A stretch of 49,437 nt of DNA from Saprospiraceae bacterium. GTDB taxonomy: Bacteria; Bacteroidota; Bacteroidia; Chitinophagales; Saprospiraceae. The notes beneath the pieces were generated by a model, which saw only the letters and a list, made by a program, of their open reading frames with translations, was not told the origin of the DNA and did no database searches. Numbering within the stretch: the first letter of the stretch is position 1; each line of letters begins with the position of its first letter. The position numbers and the translations under genes are program-made. This document shows, in pieces, positions 25,728 through 33,780 of this stretch. Location of the stretch: assembly GCA_020847915.1 (NCBI GenBank), contig JADLBE010000111.1:1-49437 (forward strand). Reading direction: 5' to 3'.

Positions 25728-26276
25728 ATGTTTCTTATGTCTACCAGCGTTTTGTTTTTTTTCCTGCACGCTTTTGCATCGGTGTTCGCCGGACCTGTGT
25801 ACCGCTGCGACAACGGCCGGATTTTGCTCCGTTCCGACGCGCCCCTGGAAGCCATCGAAGCATCCAGCGGCAGTTTGCGCGGCATCATCGACGCCGAACA
25901 ACAAACCTTCGCGTGGTCGGTTGACATCAAAACGTTCGACGGCTTCAACAGCCCCCTGCAGCGCGAACATTTCAACGAAAATTACATGGAAACCAAACGT
26001 TTCCCCAAAGCAACTTTTTCCGGAAAAATCATCGAAAAAACGGATTTTAGCCAAAACGGAACGTACACGGTACGCGCCAAAGGTTTGCTCAACATTCACG
26101 GCGTGGAACAGGAACGCATCATCAAAAGTACCATCGAAGTGAAAAACGGCCAGCTCAGGATCAAATCGCAGTTCACCGTCCCGCTGTCCGATCACAACAT
26201 CACCATACCCAAAATTGTACACCAGAAAATTGCGGAGGAAATCAAGGTTACGGTAGAGGCCGTGTTAAAAATTTAA
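25728..26276 (+). CDS. YceI-like family protein
   Basis: A 182-residue secreted protein with a signal peptide (MFLMSTSVLFFFLHAFASVFA) and a YceI-like beta-barrel lipocalin domain. Typical elements are DIKTFDGFNSPLQREHFNENYMETKRFPKATFSGKI, then GLLNIHGVEQ and the VPLSDHNITIPKIV segment. YceI proteins bind isoprenoid-type lipids in the periplasm. The start could be ATG 25728 or ATG 25737; both give a signal peptide. A TACCTTCG -7-like element lies at 25687-25694. Palindrome P10 follows 17 bp after the stop. Confidence 0.85.
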   Translation: MFLMSTSVLFFFLHAFASVFAGPVYRCDNGRILLRSDAPLEAIEASSGSLRGIIDAEQQTFAWSVDIKTFDGFNSPLQREHFNENYMETKRFPKATFSGKIIEKTDFSQNGTYTVRAKGLLNIHGVEQERIIKSTIEVKNGQLRIKSQFTVPLSDHNITIPKIVHQKIAEEIKVTVEAVLKI

Positions 26277-26491: not shown

Positions 26492-29362
26492 TTGAAAATC
26501 AAACATTTAATAATATTATTTTATCTAACAATAGCTGTGCCCCTGCAAGCGCAGACCCCCATTTTCCGTCCGCAGCGGCTCCAGGAACAAAGTGAAAACC
26601 TCCAGGTAACTTTCCTTTACCAGGACAAAAAAGGTTGGATATGGTGCGGCACCGAGCAGGGACTTTTCCGTTTCGACGGCTTTACGTGCACCCGGGTGCC
26701 GGCGCCCGACAGTCTGGACCACGCTCCGGTAACCGCCATCGGTGAAATGTCGGGTTTCCTCTGGGTGGGCTACCGCAGCGGCGCCATAACCCGGCTGCCG
26801 ACTGGCGCCGCACTCGTACCTGAAAACCAGGATGGCATAAACCAGCATGCTCCACCGGTTATGGAACGCTGGATGCCCGAAGAAGGCACACCGGCCAAAC
26901 CGATCACAGCTTTTGCCCAATCCACAGACGGGGTCCTGTGGATCGCGACCTACGGAGAAGGTATCTACGGATACCGCAACGGCAGGATGTACCAGTTCGG
27001 ACAATCGGGCGAAGGCCTGCCTTCCGACGACATTTACGCCCTGGCCACAGACCCCATGGGTTGTGTTTGGGCCGCCACAGACGGTGGCCTGAGCTGCTGC
27101 AAATTCGACGAAACCGGACGCAAAAAAACGACCAACTTCACCACCGCCGACGGCCTGCCCGACGAGATCGTCACCGCCGTAACCACCGACGGCAAAGGGA
27201 ACCTCTGGATCGGCACCTACGACCACGGTGTAAGCCGTTTCGACCTGAAAACCAAACGTTTCGACGTTTATTCGGGCGGCTGGACGCACGGTCCCGTAAC
27301 CAGTCTGACCGCATACGGCAACACCGAAGTCTGGGCTGGCACGGCACACGAAGGCGTTGTACGTTTTGACGCCGTTTCGGGTGCAACCCATGTTTTGCCC
27401 AACGGCAACAACCTCCGTACGGCGCGTGTAAAACAATTGTTGAAGGACCGTGAAGGACTGCTTTGGGTGCTGGCCGACAAGGGACAGGTGTTTACCGCCA
27501 ATGTGCGTTTCGGCGCTTTGGAAACACCTTTGGGCCAGGTACAAGCCGTGTGTTCGGACCGGCAAAAACGCCTTTGGGCGGGTGCACAAAGTGGCCTGTA
27601 CGTGCGTGAAAACGGCGCGTTCCGGCTTGTTTTGAAAGAAAACATCCTTTCGCTTTGGGAAGCGCCCAACGGACTGTTGTGGGTCGGCACTTTTGGCAAA
27701 GGCGTGTTTGTGCTCGACGGTAACGGCCGCGTAAAACACCGCATCACCGAAGGACCGATGCTCAACAACGGGAGCATCCTTTCCATCGCGGGCAACCAAC
27801 AACTCGTTTGGCTCGCAACGCTTGGTGGCGTAACCGCTTTTGACCCCGAATCTTTTTTACGATCCACGATCAGCGATCAGCAAACCACAAACAACTACGT
27901 TTACAAAGTGCTGGCCGACAGCAAAGGACGGTTCTGGTTCGGTACCGACGGCAACGGTCTCAGCGTTTGGGAAAACGGCGTTTTTAAACAATACACCGAA
28001 GCGGCAGGACAGCCGTTAAAAACCATTTATTGCATTGCTGAAGACAAAAACGGGCACCTGTGGTTCAGCACCGACAAAACGGGTTTGTTCCGTTTCGATG
28101 GCAAAACTTTCCGCCATTACACACGCCGCGAACACCTGCACAGTACCGCCATCACAGGTTTGGCGGTGGACGGCAACGGGCAGGTAATCATCGCTTACGA
28201 GGACGGTTTCGATGCTTTGAACCCCGCGACCGACCATGTGGCTTTTTACAACAGCAGCGCCGGAGCGCCGTCGGCAGACATCAACCTGAACGCCATGTTT
28301 ACCGATGCGCAGGGCCATGTGTGGATGGGTGGCAGCAACGGACTTATACGCGCCGCTGCGTTTCAGGAAACCTTTTTCCACGATCCGCAACCCAGCATCA
28401 CGGCGGTTTCGGTGTTTATGCAGGCGCTGGACTACCAAAAAACCACCCGTTTTGCCCACAACAACAACTACTTCATTTTTAATTTTACGGGGTTGTGGTA
28501 CACCAATCCGGATGTCGTGCGTTACCGGTACCGGCTTGAGGGTTTTGATCCCGATTGGAAGGTTTCCAAGGACCACCTGGCCTCCTACCCCAACCTACCG
28601 CCGGGTTCGTATGTTTTTCGCTTGCAGGCCAGTGAGCACGGTAGTTTTGAAAATACGCCCGAAACGGTGTACGCCTTTACCATCAGTCACCCGTTTTGGG
28701 TGCAGTGGTGGTTCATCGTTTTGTGCACCATGCTGGCCGTCGCGGCGATTTATGCGTACATCCGTTACCGCGAGGGTGTTTTGAAACGGGAAGCTCAGTT
28801 GAAACGGGAAAAGATTGAATATCAGTTTGAAGCGTTAAAAAGCCAGATCAACCCGCATTTTTTGTTCAACAGTTTCAACACCCTCATCACCGTCATCGAG
28901 GAAAACCCCAATGTGGCGGTGTCGTATGTGGAACATTTGTCGGACTTCTACCGCAGCATGCTGGTGTACCGCGAGCGCAACCTGATTTCCCTGAACGAGG
29001 AAATGGAACTGGTGCGGAATTTTCACTTTTTGCTGAAACAACGTTTTGAAAACAATTTTACCTTAAACGAAAACCTGAACGGCGCCGAAGGGCGCATCAT
29101 GCCGCTGACCCTACAAATTTTGGTGGAAAATGCCGTCAAACACAACGTCATCGCCGCCAAACGTCCGCTTACCGTGGATATTTTTGTAGAAAACGGGCAA
29201 TACGTTGTGGTGCGCAACAACTACCAACCCAAACTCAAACCAGAATCGGGCACACGTTTCGGTTTGCAAAGCCTGGTGAAACGTTACCTGATGCTGGGCG
29301 ACAAACCCGTGGAGGTGCATCAGGACGAACACTTTTTTACCGTAAAAATCCCCCTATTGTAA
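26492..29362 (+). CDS. Two-component sensor: propeller domain plus LytS-type histidine kinase
   Basis: A 956-residue sensor. The signal peptide (MKIKHLIILFYLTIAVPLQAQ) is followed by about a dozen two-component-regulator propeller repeats (GWIWCGTEQGLFRFDG, LWIGTYDHGVSRFD) and a Y_Y_Y domain (YRYRLEGFDPDWK). One membrane helix follows near residue 748, then a His_kinase domain. The phospho-acceptor is His789 in INPHFLFNSFN and the ATP-binding N box is ILVENAVKHN. Such proteins sense extracellular, often glycan-derived, ligands in the periplasm. The start is TTG (26492): no in-frame ATG precedes the signal peptide. It lies 2 bp upstream of its LytTR partner. Confidence 0.93.
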   Translation: MKIKHLIILFYLTIAVPLQAQTPIFRPQRLQEQSENLQVTFLYQDKKGWIWCGTEQGLFRFDGFTCTRVPAPDSLDHAPVTAIGEMSGFLWVGYRSGAITRLPTGAALVPENQDGINQHAPPVMERWMPEEGTPAKPITAFAQSTDGVLWIATYGEGIYGYRNGRMYQFGQSGEGLPSDDIYALATDPMGCVWAATDGGLSCCKFDETGRKKTTNFTTADGLPDEIVTAVTTDGKGNLWIGTYDHGVSRFDLKTKRFDVYSGGWTHGPVTSLTAYGNTEVWAGTAHEGVVRFDAVSGATHVLPNGNNLRTARVKQLLKDREGLLWVLADKGQVFTANVRFGALETPLGQVQAVCSDRQKRLWAGAQSGLYVRENGAFRLVLKENILSLWEAPNGLLWVGTFGKGVFVLDGNGRVKHRITEGPMLNNGSILSIAGNQQLVWLATLGGVTAFDPESFLRSTISDQQTTNNYVYKVLADSKGRFWFGTDGNGLSVWENGVFKQYTEAAGQPLKTIYCIAEDKNGHLWFSTDKTGLFRFDGKTFRHYTRREHLHSTAITGLAVDGNGQVIIAYEDGFDALNPATDHVAFYNSSAGAPSADINLNAMFTDAQGHVWMGGSNGLIRAAAFQETFFHDPQPSITAVSVFMQALDYQKTTRFAHNNNYFIFNFTGLWYTNPDVVRYRYRLEGFDPDWKVSKDHLASYPNLPPGSYVFRLQASEHGSFENTPETVYAFTISHPFWVQWWFIVLCTMLAVAAIYAYIRYREGVLKREAQLKREKIEYQFEALKSQINPHFLFNSFNTLITVIEENPNVAVSYVEHLSDFYRSMLVYRERNLISLNEEMELVRNFHFLLKQRFENNFTLNENLNGAEGRIMPLTLQILVENAVKHNVIAAKRPLTVDIFVENGQYVVVRNNYQPKLKPESGTRFGLQSLVKRYLMLGDKPVEVHQDEHFFTVKIPLL

Positions 29363-29364
29363 AG

Positions 29365-30141
29365 ATGAAAGCACTGATCGTAGAAGACGAAAACGCCGCC
29401 GCACGCAGGCTCGAAAAACTTCTTTTGGAAATCAATCCCGGCATGGTGGTATTACAACGGCTCGACAGCGTGGAGACCGCCGTGGCCTGGCTGCAAAACA
29501 ATCCGGCGCCCGACCTGATGTTCCTCGACATCCAGCTTGCCGACGGTTCCAGTTTTGATATTTTCGAACACGTCAACATTTCTTGTCCGGTTGTTTTTAC
29601 CACCGCTTTCGACGAGTACGCCCTGCAGGCCTTCAAGGTACATGCCATCGATTACCTGCTCAAACCCATCAAATCCAACGAACTGGCGGCGGCCCTGGAG
29701 AAATACAACCGGCTCTACCCTGCCCCGGCGCCCGATTACAACGCCCTGATGGACAGTTTGCGCAAAACCGGCGCCGCCAAATACCTGCGGCGTATGCTGA
29801 TCAAACTGGGCAACAGCATCAAACTGGTGGACATGGCCGATGCGGCTTATTTTTACACCAAAGACAAAATCACCTTCCTGGTAAACAAATCCACGGGCAA
29901 ACGTTTCCCCGTGGATTATCCGCTCGACAAGCTCGAAAACATGCTGGATCCCGATGTTTTTTTTCGCATCAACCGCCAGTTCATCGTCAACATCCACGGC
30001 ATCAAGGAAATGCAACCTTATTCGAAAAGCAGGGTAAAAGTGGTGCTTGAGCCCCATACCGACCAGGAAACCATCGTAAGCACCGAAAGATCGGCCGATT
30101 TCAAACGCTGGCTGGTGGGTAGTGGCGCCGACGAGTTATAA
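29365..30141 (+). CDS. LytTR-family response regulator
   Basis: A 258-residue regulator with an N-terminal receiver and a C-terminal LytTR DNA-binding domain (about 140-250). In the receiver the phosphorylated residue is Asp55 in LMFLDIQLADG, with acidic EDE at 8-10 and the conserved Lys in YLLKPI. The LytTR domain has KLGNSIKLVDMADAAYFYTKDK and RINRQFIVNIHGIKEM. It is the partner of the propeller kinase 2 bp upstream and binds DNA direct repeats once phosphorylated. No polysaccharide locus is adjacent, so the target genes are unknown. Confidence 0.95.
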   Translation: MKALIVEDENAAARRLEKLLLEINPGMVVLQRLDSVETAVAWLQNNPAPDLMFLDIQLADGSSFDIFEHVNISCPVVFTTAFDEYALQAFKVHAIDYLLKPIKSNELAAALEKYNRLYPAPAPDYNALMDSLRKTGAAKYLRRMLIKLGNSIKLVDMADAAYFYTKDKITFLVNKSTGKRFPVDYPLDKLENMLDPDVFFRINRQFIVNIHGIKEMQPYSKSRVKVVLEPHTDQETIVSTERSADFKRWLVGSGADEL

Positions 30142-30203
30142 GTTCTCATTTTAAGTTATTTTTAAGTTCTGTTGAACCTTTTTTGCGATTACTTTCGTAA
30201 ACA

Positions 30204-30234
30204 TTTAACAGAACCGGCTGTTATACTATCTTTA
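30204..30234 (+). promoter_or_regulatory. Candidate promoter of the MerR gene
   Basis: TTTA-N19-TATCTTTA, one mismatch in each element. Two inverted copies of a GTTCTGTT(G/A)AA word flank the area (about 30168-30179 and 30204-30215) and could be an operator or the LytTR gene terminator. Confidence 0.4.
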
Positions 30235-30359: not shown

Positions 30360-31256
30360 ATGGCGATATACTCTATCCGGGATTTAGAAAAACTCACGGG
30401 TATCAAAGCGCACACCATACGCATTTGGGAGCAACGTTATCGTCTCATCGAACCTGCACGTACCGACACCAACATTCGGTACTATACCGACGAAAATCTC
30501 CGCCACCTTTTCAACATTGCTTTGCTGAACCGCCACGGCTACAAAATTAGTCGTCTGGCCAAAATGCAGCCCGAAGAAATTGCGGCGAGGGTGTCGGAAA
30601 TAGCCGAAAACAACGGCAGTCAAAACGCCCAGATCGATGCACTCACCCTGGCCATGATCGACCTGGACGAGAGCACGTTCGACCGGATTTTCCAGGCGTA
30701 CACCTGGGAGCACAGTTTCGAAAAAACCATGCTGGAACTGGTGTACCCGTTCCTCGACAAATTGAATGTGCTGTGGCTTACGAACAGCGTTAGTCCGGCC
30801 CACGAAAAATTCATCGGCAACCTCATCCGCCGCAAATTGATGTGCGCCATCGACAAAGAGTCGGTAGAAACCACCCGCGACGCACCTACATTTCTGCTGT
30901 ACATGCCCGAAGGAGAAAGTCAGGAACTGACCTTGTTGTTTATGCATTACCTGCTGCGCCACCGCGGCCACCGCGTCATTTACCTCGGCGCCAATACTTC
31001 CGTGAACGACCTGCGCGACGCGTGTCAGCCCATCCGTCCACAGTTCATTTTTACCATTCTGCAAGAGCCTTTGCCACGCCAATCGATCCAAAATTACATC
31101 GATGCGGCCAGCAATGCCGTAATGGGTGGCCAAATGTTGCTTACCGGCTCACAACTCTTCGTGAACCCCGTAAAACTGCCTTCCAATGCAACCGTATTGA
31201 ACGGCCTGCAGGACACATTGCAGTTTTTGGATGCGCTTAAGGTGAAAAAGAAGTAA
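30360..31256 (+). CDS. MerR/LitR-like regulator with degenerate B12-binding domain
   Basis: A 298-residue regulator. Residues 1-70 are a MerR helix-turn-helix (YSIRDLEKLTGIKAHTIRIWEQRYRLI). The rest matches the helical plus Rossmann cobalamin module of LitR/CarH photoreceptors (KLNVLWLTNSVSPAHEKFIGNLIRRKL, then HRGHRVIYLGANTS). The cobalamin-coordinating His (GExHELG in CarH) is replaced by Gln188 in GESQELT, and the following Gly by Thr, so light/B12 sensing is probably lost. The start is ATG 30360; the track's 38 extra residues precede a natural MerR N-terminus. Its stop is 3 bp from the convergent SUMF1 gene. Target genes are unknown. Confidence 0.85.
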   Translation: MAIYSIRDLEKLTGIKAHTIRIWEQRYRLIEPARTDTNIRYYTDENLRHLFNIALLNRHGYKISRLAKMQPEEIAARVSEIAENNGSQNAQIDALTLAMIDLDESTFDRIFQAYTWEHSFEKTMLELVYPFLDKLNVLWLTNSVSPAHEKFIGNLIRRKLMCAIDKESVETTRDAPTFLLYMPEGESQELTLLFMHYLLRHRGHRVIYLGANTSVNDLRDACQPIRPQFIFTILQEPLPRQSIQNYIDAASNAVMGGQMLLTGSQLFVNPVKLPSNATVLNGLQDTLQFLDALKVKKK

Positions 31257-31259
31257 ATT

Positions 31260-32645
31260 CTACCGCGCCACGCGGAATCCAAAGGCATCAAATCGCCCGG
31301 CAGGCACATCATCGTAACGGCGCCCCACTTCGGCCAGGGATGCGCCGAAAACACTGTTTCCACCTCGGAACACACGTTCTGTACCACTTTGCGGCCCGTG
31401 GTAATTGGCAGGAACTTCATCAGGGAAGGTATCTCCCCAATCCCAGCACCACTCCAAAGCGTTGCCGCTCATATCGTACAGATAAAAAGCATTGGTTCTG
31501 AGCCTTTTAACGGGGTGCGTACGGCCCCCGCTGTTTTTTTCAAACCAACCAACCAGTTCGAGGGTGTCGCTCCCGGCATATTTGGTGCGCTTTTGGGCGC
31601 GCGCTGCAAACTCCCATTCAATTTCCGTGGGCAGCCGGTAGCCAATAATTGTGGTATCGAGGCTGTAATCGTTGTCCGAAGTACCACTGATGGAATTTTT
31701 ATGTCCCAAACGTTGGTTCAGCCATTGGGTGTAGGCTACGGCTTCGTACCAGGAGACTTTGACAACAGGATGATCACCTTTGGGAACTTCTTTTGCGGGA
31801 AAGTTTAAACCTTGTGATTTGCAATACAAACCGTATTGCCACCAGGTCGTTTCCGTTTCAGCCATTTGAAAAGGCGAAACCCGGATCGGCACACTGCCAA
31901 ATGAGTCAGTTCCGCCGGGGATGTCCACCATTTTAGGATAATAACGTGCCTCGAGCGCCTGAAACCTCGTCCTGCTCAGCGCTTCGATGGCTGTGCGGAT
32001 ACCCAGGCGGTCACCTTGTCCATGGTGCAGGCTATCGCCTCGGAGCAGATAAACCGTGTCCATAATGCCCCAGGCGCGGTGGAGTGTCCCGGTTTCGGCA
32101 TACCAGTAAGCAAATTCAAGCAGTGAATCGCTGACCATTCCGGAAGCGACACCAAGCGCTACGGCTTCTGCCATTTGTTCGTATGCTTTGCCGTAGTTCA
32201 ACTGAAAACGGTAATGGTACGATTGTTCCAGAAACAGTTTGGCAAGTCTTATTTTTTCTTCCTCCAGCAGCTTTAAGGTTTCTTCAACGGCTTTTTGGTT
32301 TTTTTTCAGTTGGTCGTCGGACTTCCGGTGTCTGCGGGACGTGTTTGCCTCAGCTTTTTTTCGAACAACTTCCGCCTGCAGCGAATCAACCCTGGCTTTT
32401 TGAATAATGATCTGCGCTGCCTGAATATTTTGGACAACAGTTTCCTGTTCGGACCGGGCCAATTGAATTTCGTTCTTCGCGTTGCGTTCTGAAGCTTCGG
32501 CTTCTTTTGTTTTTGCTATGGCCAAATCCATCAAAACATTTGCCTCAACATGTGTTTGCCACGATTTCCACATCAGCAGCAAAGCAATGGCCAAAAGCAA
32601 CAAAGAAAAGCGGTTCACAACAGGGGATGCATTCACTGGTTTCAT
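31260..32645 (-). CDS. Membrane-anchored SUMF1/FGE-fold protein with coiled coil
   Basis: A 461-residue protein with one N-terminal membrane helix (about 12-28) and a long charged coiled coil (about 35-135; KTKEAEASERNAKNEIQLARSEQE). A helical linker follows, then a C-terminal formylglycine-generating-enzyme-like domain (PFQMAETETTWWQYGLYC, YRLPTEIEWEFAARA, YDMSGNALEWCWDW, RVFRGGNSVFG ... FGFRVAR). The catalytic cysteine pair of true FGE is not seen near RVFRGGNS, so this is probably a binding or structural SUMF1 domain. It starts 12 bp after the EAD11-like membrane protein gene, so the two form an operon; no sulfatase is nearby. Confidence 0.82.
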   Translation of the reverse strand: MKPVNASPVVNRFSLLLLAIALLLMWKSWQTHVEANVLMDLAIAKTKEAEASERNAKNEIQLARSEQETVVQNIQAAQIIIQKARVDSLQAEVVRKKAEANTSRRHRKSDDQLKKNQKAVEETLKLLEEEKIRLAKLFLEQSYHYRFQLNYGKAYEQMAEAVALGVASGMVSDSLLEFAYWYAETGTLHRAWGIMDTVYLLRGDSLHHGQGDRLGIRTAIEALSRTRFQALEARYYPKMVDIPGGTDSFGSVPIRVSPFQMAETETTWWQYGLYCKSQGLNFPAKEVPKGDHPVVKVSWYEAVAYTQWLNQRLGHKNSISGTSDNDYSLDTTIIGYRLPTEIEWEFAARAQKRTKYAGSDTLELVGWFEKNSGGRTHPVKRLRTNAFYLYDMSGNALEWCWDWGDTFPDEVPANYHGPQSGTERVFRGGNSVFGASLAEVGRRYDDVPAGRFDAFGFRVAR

Positions 32646-32657
32646 AAAATCTTCATG

Positions 32658-33698
32658 TTAATCCGCCGCTTTTTTCAAAGGCAATGTTTTCCTGCGCACA
32701 TCCAGCTGAGTTTTCCGGATGGGAGTCTTGTCGTTGGCAGCCAGCAATTCCCGCATTTTGTTGTCGTCTGAAGTAGGCGTATTGATGCGATTGAGCCATT
32801 TGAGAGCCAACGCTTCATTTCTTTCACGGATGGCCATGATGGTGCAGATGGAAAAAACGGCATCTTCAAGGGTTCGCCGGTACATTTTGCCTTTGGTGAG
32901 TGCAGGAAGGTTGGGCACCGACTGAAAATCGGTTTTGCCCGTGCGTTTTGTTTGGGTAAAAACGTAACGGACCTCAACTTCCAATGCGTCGCGGGAGTGG
33001 CCGTACTGGCCCCAAATGACAAGATCAGCGCTGCAATTACTACCAATATCAGCGGCTTTGTCGAAATCAGGTGTGCTGTTGGACTGCAATGCTCCCTTGT
33101 ACACTTCAACCATGGAAGGCAAATTATTATTTGTGGTCAGCTCACTTATTATTTTTTGGAAGGCCAACTCAGGTTTGTCTGTATCACTACCGTACGATTG
33201 AAAGGGAAGGATCAAAACCCGCACGCCTTCGCGTGTGTAGGTGGGACAAACATCCGCTTTTTCTGTGGTAATCGATGCTTTGGACAATTTGGACGCATAA
33301 GACTTTTCAAACACCACCCATCCTGCAACAACCAAAAAAAGCAGTGAAAAAATAGCAACCAGTGCTTTTCGGGAAGAAGATGAAGTTGTTGGGGCCGGGG
33401 CCGTGTCGGCAATCCGGCCCGTTTGGGGCACACGTCCGCGCTCGAGCTCGTCGACGATGCCGTGGATGCTGTTGATGGCTTTGCTGTAAATCGGCCGGGC
33501 TTCATTGTAGGTTAAAATGCCTTTGCGTTCGTTTTGTTTGGCGCTCAACACTTCGGTTTCGATGACACGAAGGGTGCGAACCACTTCATCGTACACATCG
33601 TTGTCCTTCAACTTTTCGATCAACAAGTGCAGGGCGCCCGGCGTATCATCGTCGCGCAGCAGCAGGCGTACCTGTTCGAATAAAGCGTTGTTTTCCAT
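32658..33698 (-). CDS. EAD11-like, single-TM protein of a possible conflict/signalling module
   Basis: A 346-residue protein. Residues 1-85 resemble effector-associated domain 11 (FEQVRLLLRDDDTPGALHLL ... KGILTYNEARPIYSKAINSIHGIVDEL). A Ser/Thr-rich linker and one membrane helix (about 110-128; ALVAIFSLLFLVVAGWVVF) follow, then a domain with VRVLILPFQSYG and SADLVIWGQYG, a TolB/FlgO-like pattern. EAD domains recruit partner effectors by homotypic contacts. Start candidates are 33698 (MENNALFEQ) or 33707 (MTFMENN); the track's 33731 start reads into a repeat. It is followed by the SUMF1 gene. Confidence 0.65.
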   Translation of the reverse strand: MENNALFEQVRLLLRDDDTPGALHLLIEKLKDNDVYDEVVRTLRVIETEVLSAKQNERKGILTYNEARPIYSKAINSIHGIVDELERGRVPQTGRIADTAPAPTTSSSSRKALVAIFSLLFLVVAGWVVFEKSYASKLSKASITTEKADVCPTYTREGVRVLILPFQSYGSDTDKPELAFQKIISELTTNNNLPSMVEVYKGALQSNSTPDFDKAADIGSNCSADLVIWGQYGHSRDALEVEVRYVFTQTKRTGKTDFQSVPNLPALTKGKMYRRTLEDAVFSICTIMAIRERNEALALKWLNRINTPTSDDNKMRELLAANDKTPIRKTQLDVRRKTLPLKKAAD

Positions 33699-33712
33699 AA
33701 AGGTCATTTTAT

Positions 33713-33780
33713 GTTCCCTACGGGATGACAAGGTTCCCTACGGGATGACAAGATTTAGTCTTGGTCATCCTGTAAGGACC
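33713..33780. repeat. 20-bp tandem repeat x2 plus inverted copy (GTCATCC family)
   Basis: GTTCCCTACGGGATGACAAG at 33713-33732 and 33733-33752, then an imperfect inverse copy at 33760-33780. The inverse copy encodes the last residues of RfbD (LQDDQD). Related to the 18-bp tandem repeat at 11605-11658. Confidence 0.85.

Follow-up and report, generated by a model that had tools for sequence, protein, structure and literature searches.

What does a regulator built like a B12-dependent photoreceptor do once the residues that should hold its cobalt are gone? The question is raised by a merR gene of a Saprospiraceae bacterium, located at positions 30360-31256 (forward strand) of the window, by which we mean the whole 49,437-nucleotide stretch of DNA that was analysed. 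The open reading frame runs from an ATG start to a TAA stop and encodes a B12-ligand-free CarH/LitR-family regulator of 298 residues. The original prediction, made from sequence, held that the protein keeps the MerR head along with the helical and Rossmann parts of the photoreceptors, and this was borne out by full-length alignment with CarH, a Pfam MerR_1 match and the modelled fold. The closest solved relatives are the Thermus CarH structures 3whp and 5c8d, which align over residues 2-258 with E about 2e-14 (phmmer E 1.8e-14).

Three domains are recognizable. The MerR winged-helix DNA-binding domain (aa 1-71, 30360-30572, +) matches PF13411 MerR_1 over aa 4-71 with E 2.7e-14, and its residues R21, W23, E24 and R26 are invariant among the 71 homologs compared. 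A four-helix cap resembling B12-binding_2 (aa 88-166, 30621-30857, +) matches PF02607 with E 3.9e-4 and a score of 21.0 bits, below the 23-bit cut-off, and its helices span residues 88-100, 104-118, 120-140 and 146-166 in the AlphaFold2 model. The Rossmann-like domain (aa 174-298, 30879-31253, +) is modelled with strands alternating with helices from residue 177 onward and gives a trace match to PF02310 (E 0.15). The model, computed from 71 window and locus sequences, has a mean pLDDT of 93.6. Its top Foldseek match and best PDB match is full-length CarH 5c8d (E 2.1e-14); TM scores for isolated cobalamin domains are about 0.75-0.84 by target length. Overall, the shape of the sensor domain is predicted to be intact.

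Alignment of 239 homologs with CarH, using CarH residue numbers from the literature, located the ligand positions. The cobalt-ligating CarH H177 corresponds to Gln188 (30921-30923, +) and the Gly of ExHxxG to Thr191 (30930-30932, +), exactly as originally described, and the check for a conserved His at the ligand positions returned Q188 and K150 instead. CarH E141-H142 corresponds to Glu149-Lys150 (30804-30809, +), and CarH H132 to Leu140. The reading of AHEKF in place of EH was thus correct as sequence, but the Glu of Wx9EH is retained and the loss is of the His alone. CarH W131 is likewise kept, as Trp139 (30774-30776, +). Ser214 (30999-31001, +) occupies a position that is Pro in CarH and in 85/89 homologs with both His residues. 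Misalignment masking a real His was ruled out, as 89 proteins in the alignment have His in exactly these columns.

For further comparison the homologs were classed as both-His (n=89), ligand-less (without His at 150 and 188, n=122) and half-ligand (n=16). Position 188 is Gln in 113 of the 122 ligand-less proteins and, by definition of the class, His in 89/89 both-His proteins; judged from these sequences, such uniformity of Gln is more than chance. N, S or K is the usual replacement at position 150. At position 191, both-His proteins carry G (50), S (21) or A (13 of 89), and ligand-less ones mostly S or T; the Pro at 214 is replaced mostly by Ser or Thr. The other cap residues persist throughout the ligand-less class, with Trp139 in 117/122 and Glu149 in 121/122. 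From these residues we infer that the window protein probably does not use cobalamin in its sensor domain.

CarH homologs have been defined by the presence of both the B12 motif and Wx9EH (PMC8156234). In the window protein the ExHxxG...SxV/T...GG motif lacks its Co-ligating His (Q188, with T191), and Wx9EH is reduced to W139 and E149. The NCBIfam model for the HTH-type transcriptional repressor CarH (NF052513) is its best match, over aa 2-258 with E 6.2e-23, but scores 81.5 bits where the cut-off is 400. Because both defining motifs fail and the NCBIfam score falls far below cut-off, the protein, as read from its sequence and predicted structure, is a member of the CarH/LitR superfamily by descent and fold, yet not a CarH. 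Common descent with CarH extends over the full length, from the phmmer alignment and from the nesting of the window protein among both-His Bacteroidota homologs in the tree described below. With CarH and class I LitR of Thermus thermophilus, Bacillus megaterium and Streptomyces coelicolor it shares the order of MerR, cap and Rossmann domains, the fold, Wx9E and an apparent carotenoid context; it differs in lacking the cobalt His and the Wx9EH His, in being unlinked to crt genes and in its predicted independence of B12.

Two known relatives also depart from the CarH pattern. CarA of Myxococcus xanthus, in which B12 binding and B12 dependence are separable (PMC8156234), is a B12-independent CarH relative in carotenoid control, a character that the window protein is predicted to share (PMC9304148, PMC8156234). 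However, in CarA the B12 motif and EH are intact and the Trp is missing, whereas the window protein keeps the Trp and has lost both His residues. CarA can also bind B12 and has a paralog beside it in CarH, whereas merR is present in one copy in the window genome, where a search for a second, canonical CarH-like copy returned none at E <= 0.01. CarA responds via CarS (PMC8156234). Class II LitR proteins (Pseudomonas PplR/PmlR2), also of the CarH/LitR family, are judged unable to bind B12 and mediate a light response via a short LOV protein (PMC9758184). Their only recognizable B12 domain is the helical B12-binding_2 part, whereas the Rossmann domain of the window protein is predicted with high confidence to be intact, and a Pfam scan of nine merR neighbours found no LOV domain.

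The original prediction had suggested that a B12-free branch of the family would be worth defining, by phylogeny with mapping of the ligand residues. Among 162 Bacteroidota homologs placed in a tree, which was built by a quick method with the motif columns excluded and contains long branches, 85 sequences form a single clade with SH-aLRT 100, in which ligand loss is concentrated, so that such a branch can indeed be defined. Of its members, 65 belong to the same family as the window, 16 to Saprospiraceae and one to Lewinellaceae, and three are unplaced; nearly all are therefore Saprospiraceae, the window's family being assigned there by its closest named relatives. Within it, 69 proteins have neither His, 13 lack only the equivalent of His150, one lacks only that of His188 and two (L184, L225) have both; Q stands at position 188 in 62 and H in 15, whereas only 3 have H at position 150. 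Outside the clade (n=77), His188 occurs in 74, His150 in 75 and both in 72. From the mixed residues inside the clade, the sequences indicate that His was lost on several occasions or partly regained, and since 15 members keep His188 and two keep both residues, B12 use may survive in some of them.

A scan of species genomes confirmed at least 577 candidates, of which the best 80 (43-77% identity) were retained, and matches at E <= 1e-20 occurred in 81/393 genomes sampled across the phylum and in 139/150 sampled within the family. Positions 150 and 188 covary in the top set (n=81), with both His in 21, neither in 58 and a mixed state in 2.

Retention of the sensor domain is not a matter of incomplete decay. 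Median dN/dS for close pairs of the ligand-less group was 0.019 for the HTH, 0.015 for the helical and 0.032 for the Rossmann domain, and values of about 0.02 mean that purifying selection on the sensor domain is strong. A pseudogene or sequencing error was ruled out by the open frame, the 43-77% identity of the best 80 relatives and the same dN/dS. Loss of B12 from the host was likewise rejected as the cause of ligand loss, because the window genome encodes a cobalamin adenosyltransferase (PF01923, E 3.3e-61) and several B12-binding proteins, with five PF02310 matches above cut-off. Equal-score adenosyltransferase matches lie on opposite strands of one contig (L249 and L250, G000:C529:17202-17690 and 89081-89569), possibly as an inverted duplication or an assembly artefact.

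Gene neighbourhoods differ between the classes. Within about 6.5 kb, crtI is present at 53 of the 89 both-His loci, crtB at 35 and an ECF sigma gene at 43, versus 0, 0 and 5 of the 122 ligand-less loci, of which 35 instead have YceI nearby and 55 a gene for a Por-secreted protein; YceI also lies near merR in 13/16 half-ligand loci. In the window, merR follows genes for a YceI-like protein (25728-26276, +; PF04264 E 9.7e-13), a two-component propeller/Y_Y_Y histidine kinase (26492-29362, +), whose position beside merR is conserved in the window's own subclade only, and a LytTR response regulator (29365-30141, +), which precedes merR in that subclade. Taken alone, gene order would suggest that the branch has left carotenoid control. 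In many ligand-less or half-ligand loci YceI lies immediately downstream of merR (e.g. L022:3616-4287), and it is found within about 6.5 kb in 48/138 of them. Convergent with merR in the window (31260-33731) are genes for an FGE-sulfatase-like protein and for a neighbour in which the effector-associated domain EAD11 is weakly recognizable, which together look like a conflict-system pair. In six Pontibacter loci (L056, L058, L063, L072, L073 and L079), the merR-ECF-crt cluster adjoins, by eye, putative phenylacetate degradation genes and an enoyl-CoA hydratase gene.

Promoter sequences point to a different conclusion from gene order. Expectation maximization on upstream regions of ligand-less merR genes recovered an element, TAAAC-N16-TGTT, which in the window reads TAAACATTTAACAGAACCGGCTGTT (30198-30222, +) and which motif discovery and pattern counts found to be common to the crtI promoter. 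The pattern TRAACNWWT-N12-TGTT precedes 67 of the 122 ligand-less merR genes, with 1 and 2 occurrences for the reversed and reverse-complement controls, and 68 of its 70 sites in 1.14 Mb of ligand-less loci lie before merR. Upstream regions of both-His merR genes gave no comparable element, the top motifs being coding-like and tRNA-like repeats. The crtI-crtB operon of the window genome (C327, L082) is unlinked to merR, and its promoter, before a CrtID-type desaturase gene, carries TAAACAAAATTCGGTATAGACTGTT with equal spacing. Among the 30 nearest crtI promoters of the family, 29 contain TAAAC-N16-TGTT, with zero occurrences at spacings 11-15 and 17-23; the strict form is found in only 15 of 40 more divergent ones. 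The relaxed AAAC-N16-[TC]GTT peaks at spacing 16, in 47/70 crtI and 77/122 merR promoters.

A narrower pattern, TAAACAWWW-N11-CTGTT, is matched perfectly at just two places in the 5.22 Mb window genome, merR and crtI, a uniqueness that is partly circular because the pattern was written after inspection of both promoters; for the same reason more weight rests on the counts across the family. A wider regulon was not apparent, with 14 genome sites at up to one mismatch versus 31 for the reversed-pattern control and no excess beyond merR and crtI, and a looser pattern gave 10 sites versus 13. Another gene of the CrtI family (L083, G000:C138:179-1633), on a short contig and with a CruF-like gene after it, has no TAAAC-N16-TGTT in the roughly 170 upstream bases examined. 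Across genomes, crtI is missing from 10 of the 11 that lack merR versus 14 of the 139 others (Fisher 1.7e-8, with ancestry ignored and four crtI-less genomes inferred). From these sequences the branch appears to be wired to carotenoid genes in trans, a point absent from the original prediction.

An ECF sigma factor could supply the connection. In Streptomyces, LitR acts through the ECF sigma factor LitS on crt genes (PMC12705666), and crt operons of both-His loci here usually contain an ECF sigma gene preceded by TGTTTAA/TTAAACA half-sites (91 upstream of ECF genes versus 5.1 expected from shuffles). An ECF match at E <= 1e-20 was present in 100/100 family genomes searched, and most carry a copy about 60-80% identical to a merR-adjacent one. 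That of the window genome (C255), unlinked to merR, shows 70% identity to a merR-adjacent copy and 45% to the Pontibacter crt-operon sigma factor. Half-sites occur in 45 of 48 family ECF sigma promoters, often as TTTGTTTAA-N8-TAnnTTTG-N-TTYAACA, in which TTTGTTTAA and TTYAACA form an inverted repeat around a sequence resembling the housekeeping -7 element of Bacteroidota. The window genome's own ECF promoter has one good half-site only. Before merR, a possible but weak left half-site, TGTTGAACC (30170-30178, +), was read by eye as a variant of TTTGTTTAA. No anti-sigma gene was evident by eye next to the ECF sigma gene in nine loci. In L332, L334, L337 and L338, a MutY adenine glycosylase-like gene (by eye) often follows the ECF sigma gene, hinting at a link to photo-oxidative repair.

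We consider it probable that this Saprospiraceae CarH/LitR-type regulator no longer uses cobalamin and still controls carotenogenesis via an ECF sigma factor. The regulator would bind the putative inverted-repeat operator at the promoter of the unlinked, LitS-like sigma gene, and the sigma factor would recognize TAAAC-N16-TGTT promoters, transcribing crtI-crtB from one and, in a feedback loop, merR from another. By analogy, the proposed layout is that of Streptomyces LitR-LitS-crt with a B12-free regulator, the features observed in the sequences being the orthologous ECF sigma gene, the half-sites and the element common to merR and crtI. Direct control without a sigma relay is also possible, if rather unlikely: TAAAC-N16-TGTT would then be an imperfect inverted repeat serving as MerR operator at merR and crtI, both of which the protein would repress or activate, with the ECF sigma gene a third target or incidental. 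The presence of the element at both genes fits such an operator, as does the form of most crtI sites, TTAAACAAAA, which when reverse-complemented gives the TTTTGTTTAA half-site. However, merR promoters have TAAAC-N-TTTT rather than TTAAACAAAA, and the rigid 16-nt spacing, together with TAAAC-N16-CGTT variants among crtI promoters, resembles the paired -35 and -10 elements of an ECF promoter. That the branch serves a new regulon of YceI and envelope genes or the adjacent two-component system, with no role in carotenoid synthesis, would account for the absence of crtI from ligand-less neighbourhoods (0/122 versus 53/89) and for YceI near 35/122 ligand-less and 13/16 half-ligand loci, but we consider it improbable given that the merR element recurs at crtI. 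As a target of the regulator YceI was rejected, its promoters containing 5 half-sites versus 3.9 expected.

The nature of the signal bears on the remaining alternatives. Constitutive action, one of the original suggestions, is disfavoured by sensor-domain dN/dS of 0.015-0.03 and by the promoter element common to merR and crtI. The other two suggestions, a redox response or another small molecule as effector, may apply. It is doubtful that the protein remains a B12 light sensor, with cobalamin held through another lower ligand (Gln, water or base-on): retention of the cap Trp139 and Glu149 in about 96-99% of proteins, a fold matching cobalamin-bound CarH and the B12 proteins of the cell all speak for such binding, but most members lack both His residues, which belong to the two motifs by which CarH homologs have been defined (PMC8156234), and they also differ at positions 214 and 191, where Pro is conserved and Gly common in other homologs. 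For the proposed B12-free regulator, candidate inputs are a partner protein or a new ligand of the former B12 pocket. More tentatively, the old pocket might now accept some other ligand related to light, redox state or isoprenoids, to which Gln188 and Asn/Ser/Lys150 would provide new contacts; a B12 photoreceptor would then have been converted to another chromophore or metabolite with its carotenoid regulon kept.

The branch would offer a natural experiment on the scale of a whole family: a photoreceptor has lost its chromophore ligands and apparently retained its regulon. Because intermediates survive (13 without the upper His only, one without the lower only and two with both), it can be tested in which order the residues were lost and what the protein now senses. 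A further outcome is a predicted code of ECF sigma factor and operator by which Bacteroidota would control carotenoids, of which a limited literature search found no earlier report. One genome of the window's family, G162, carries a ligand-less copy together with two both-His copies (L152, L154 and L169), an arrangement comparable to the CarA/CarH pairing of Myxococcus.
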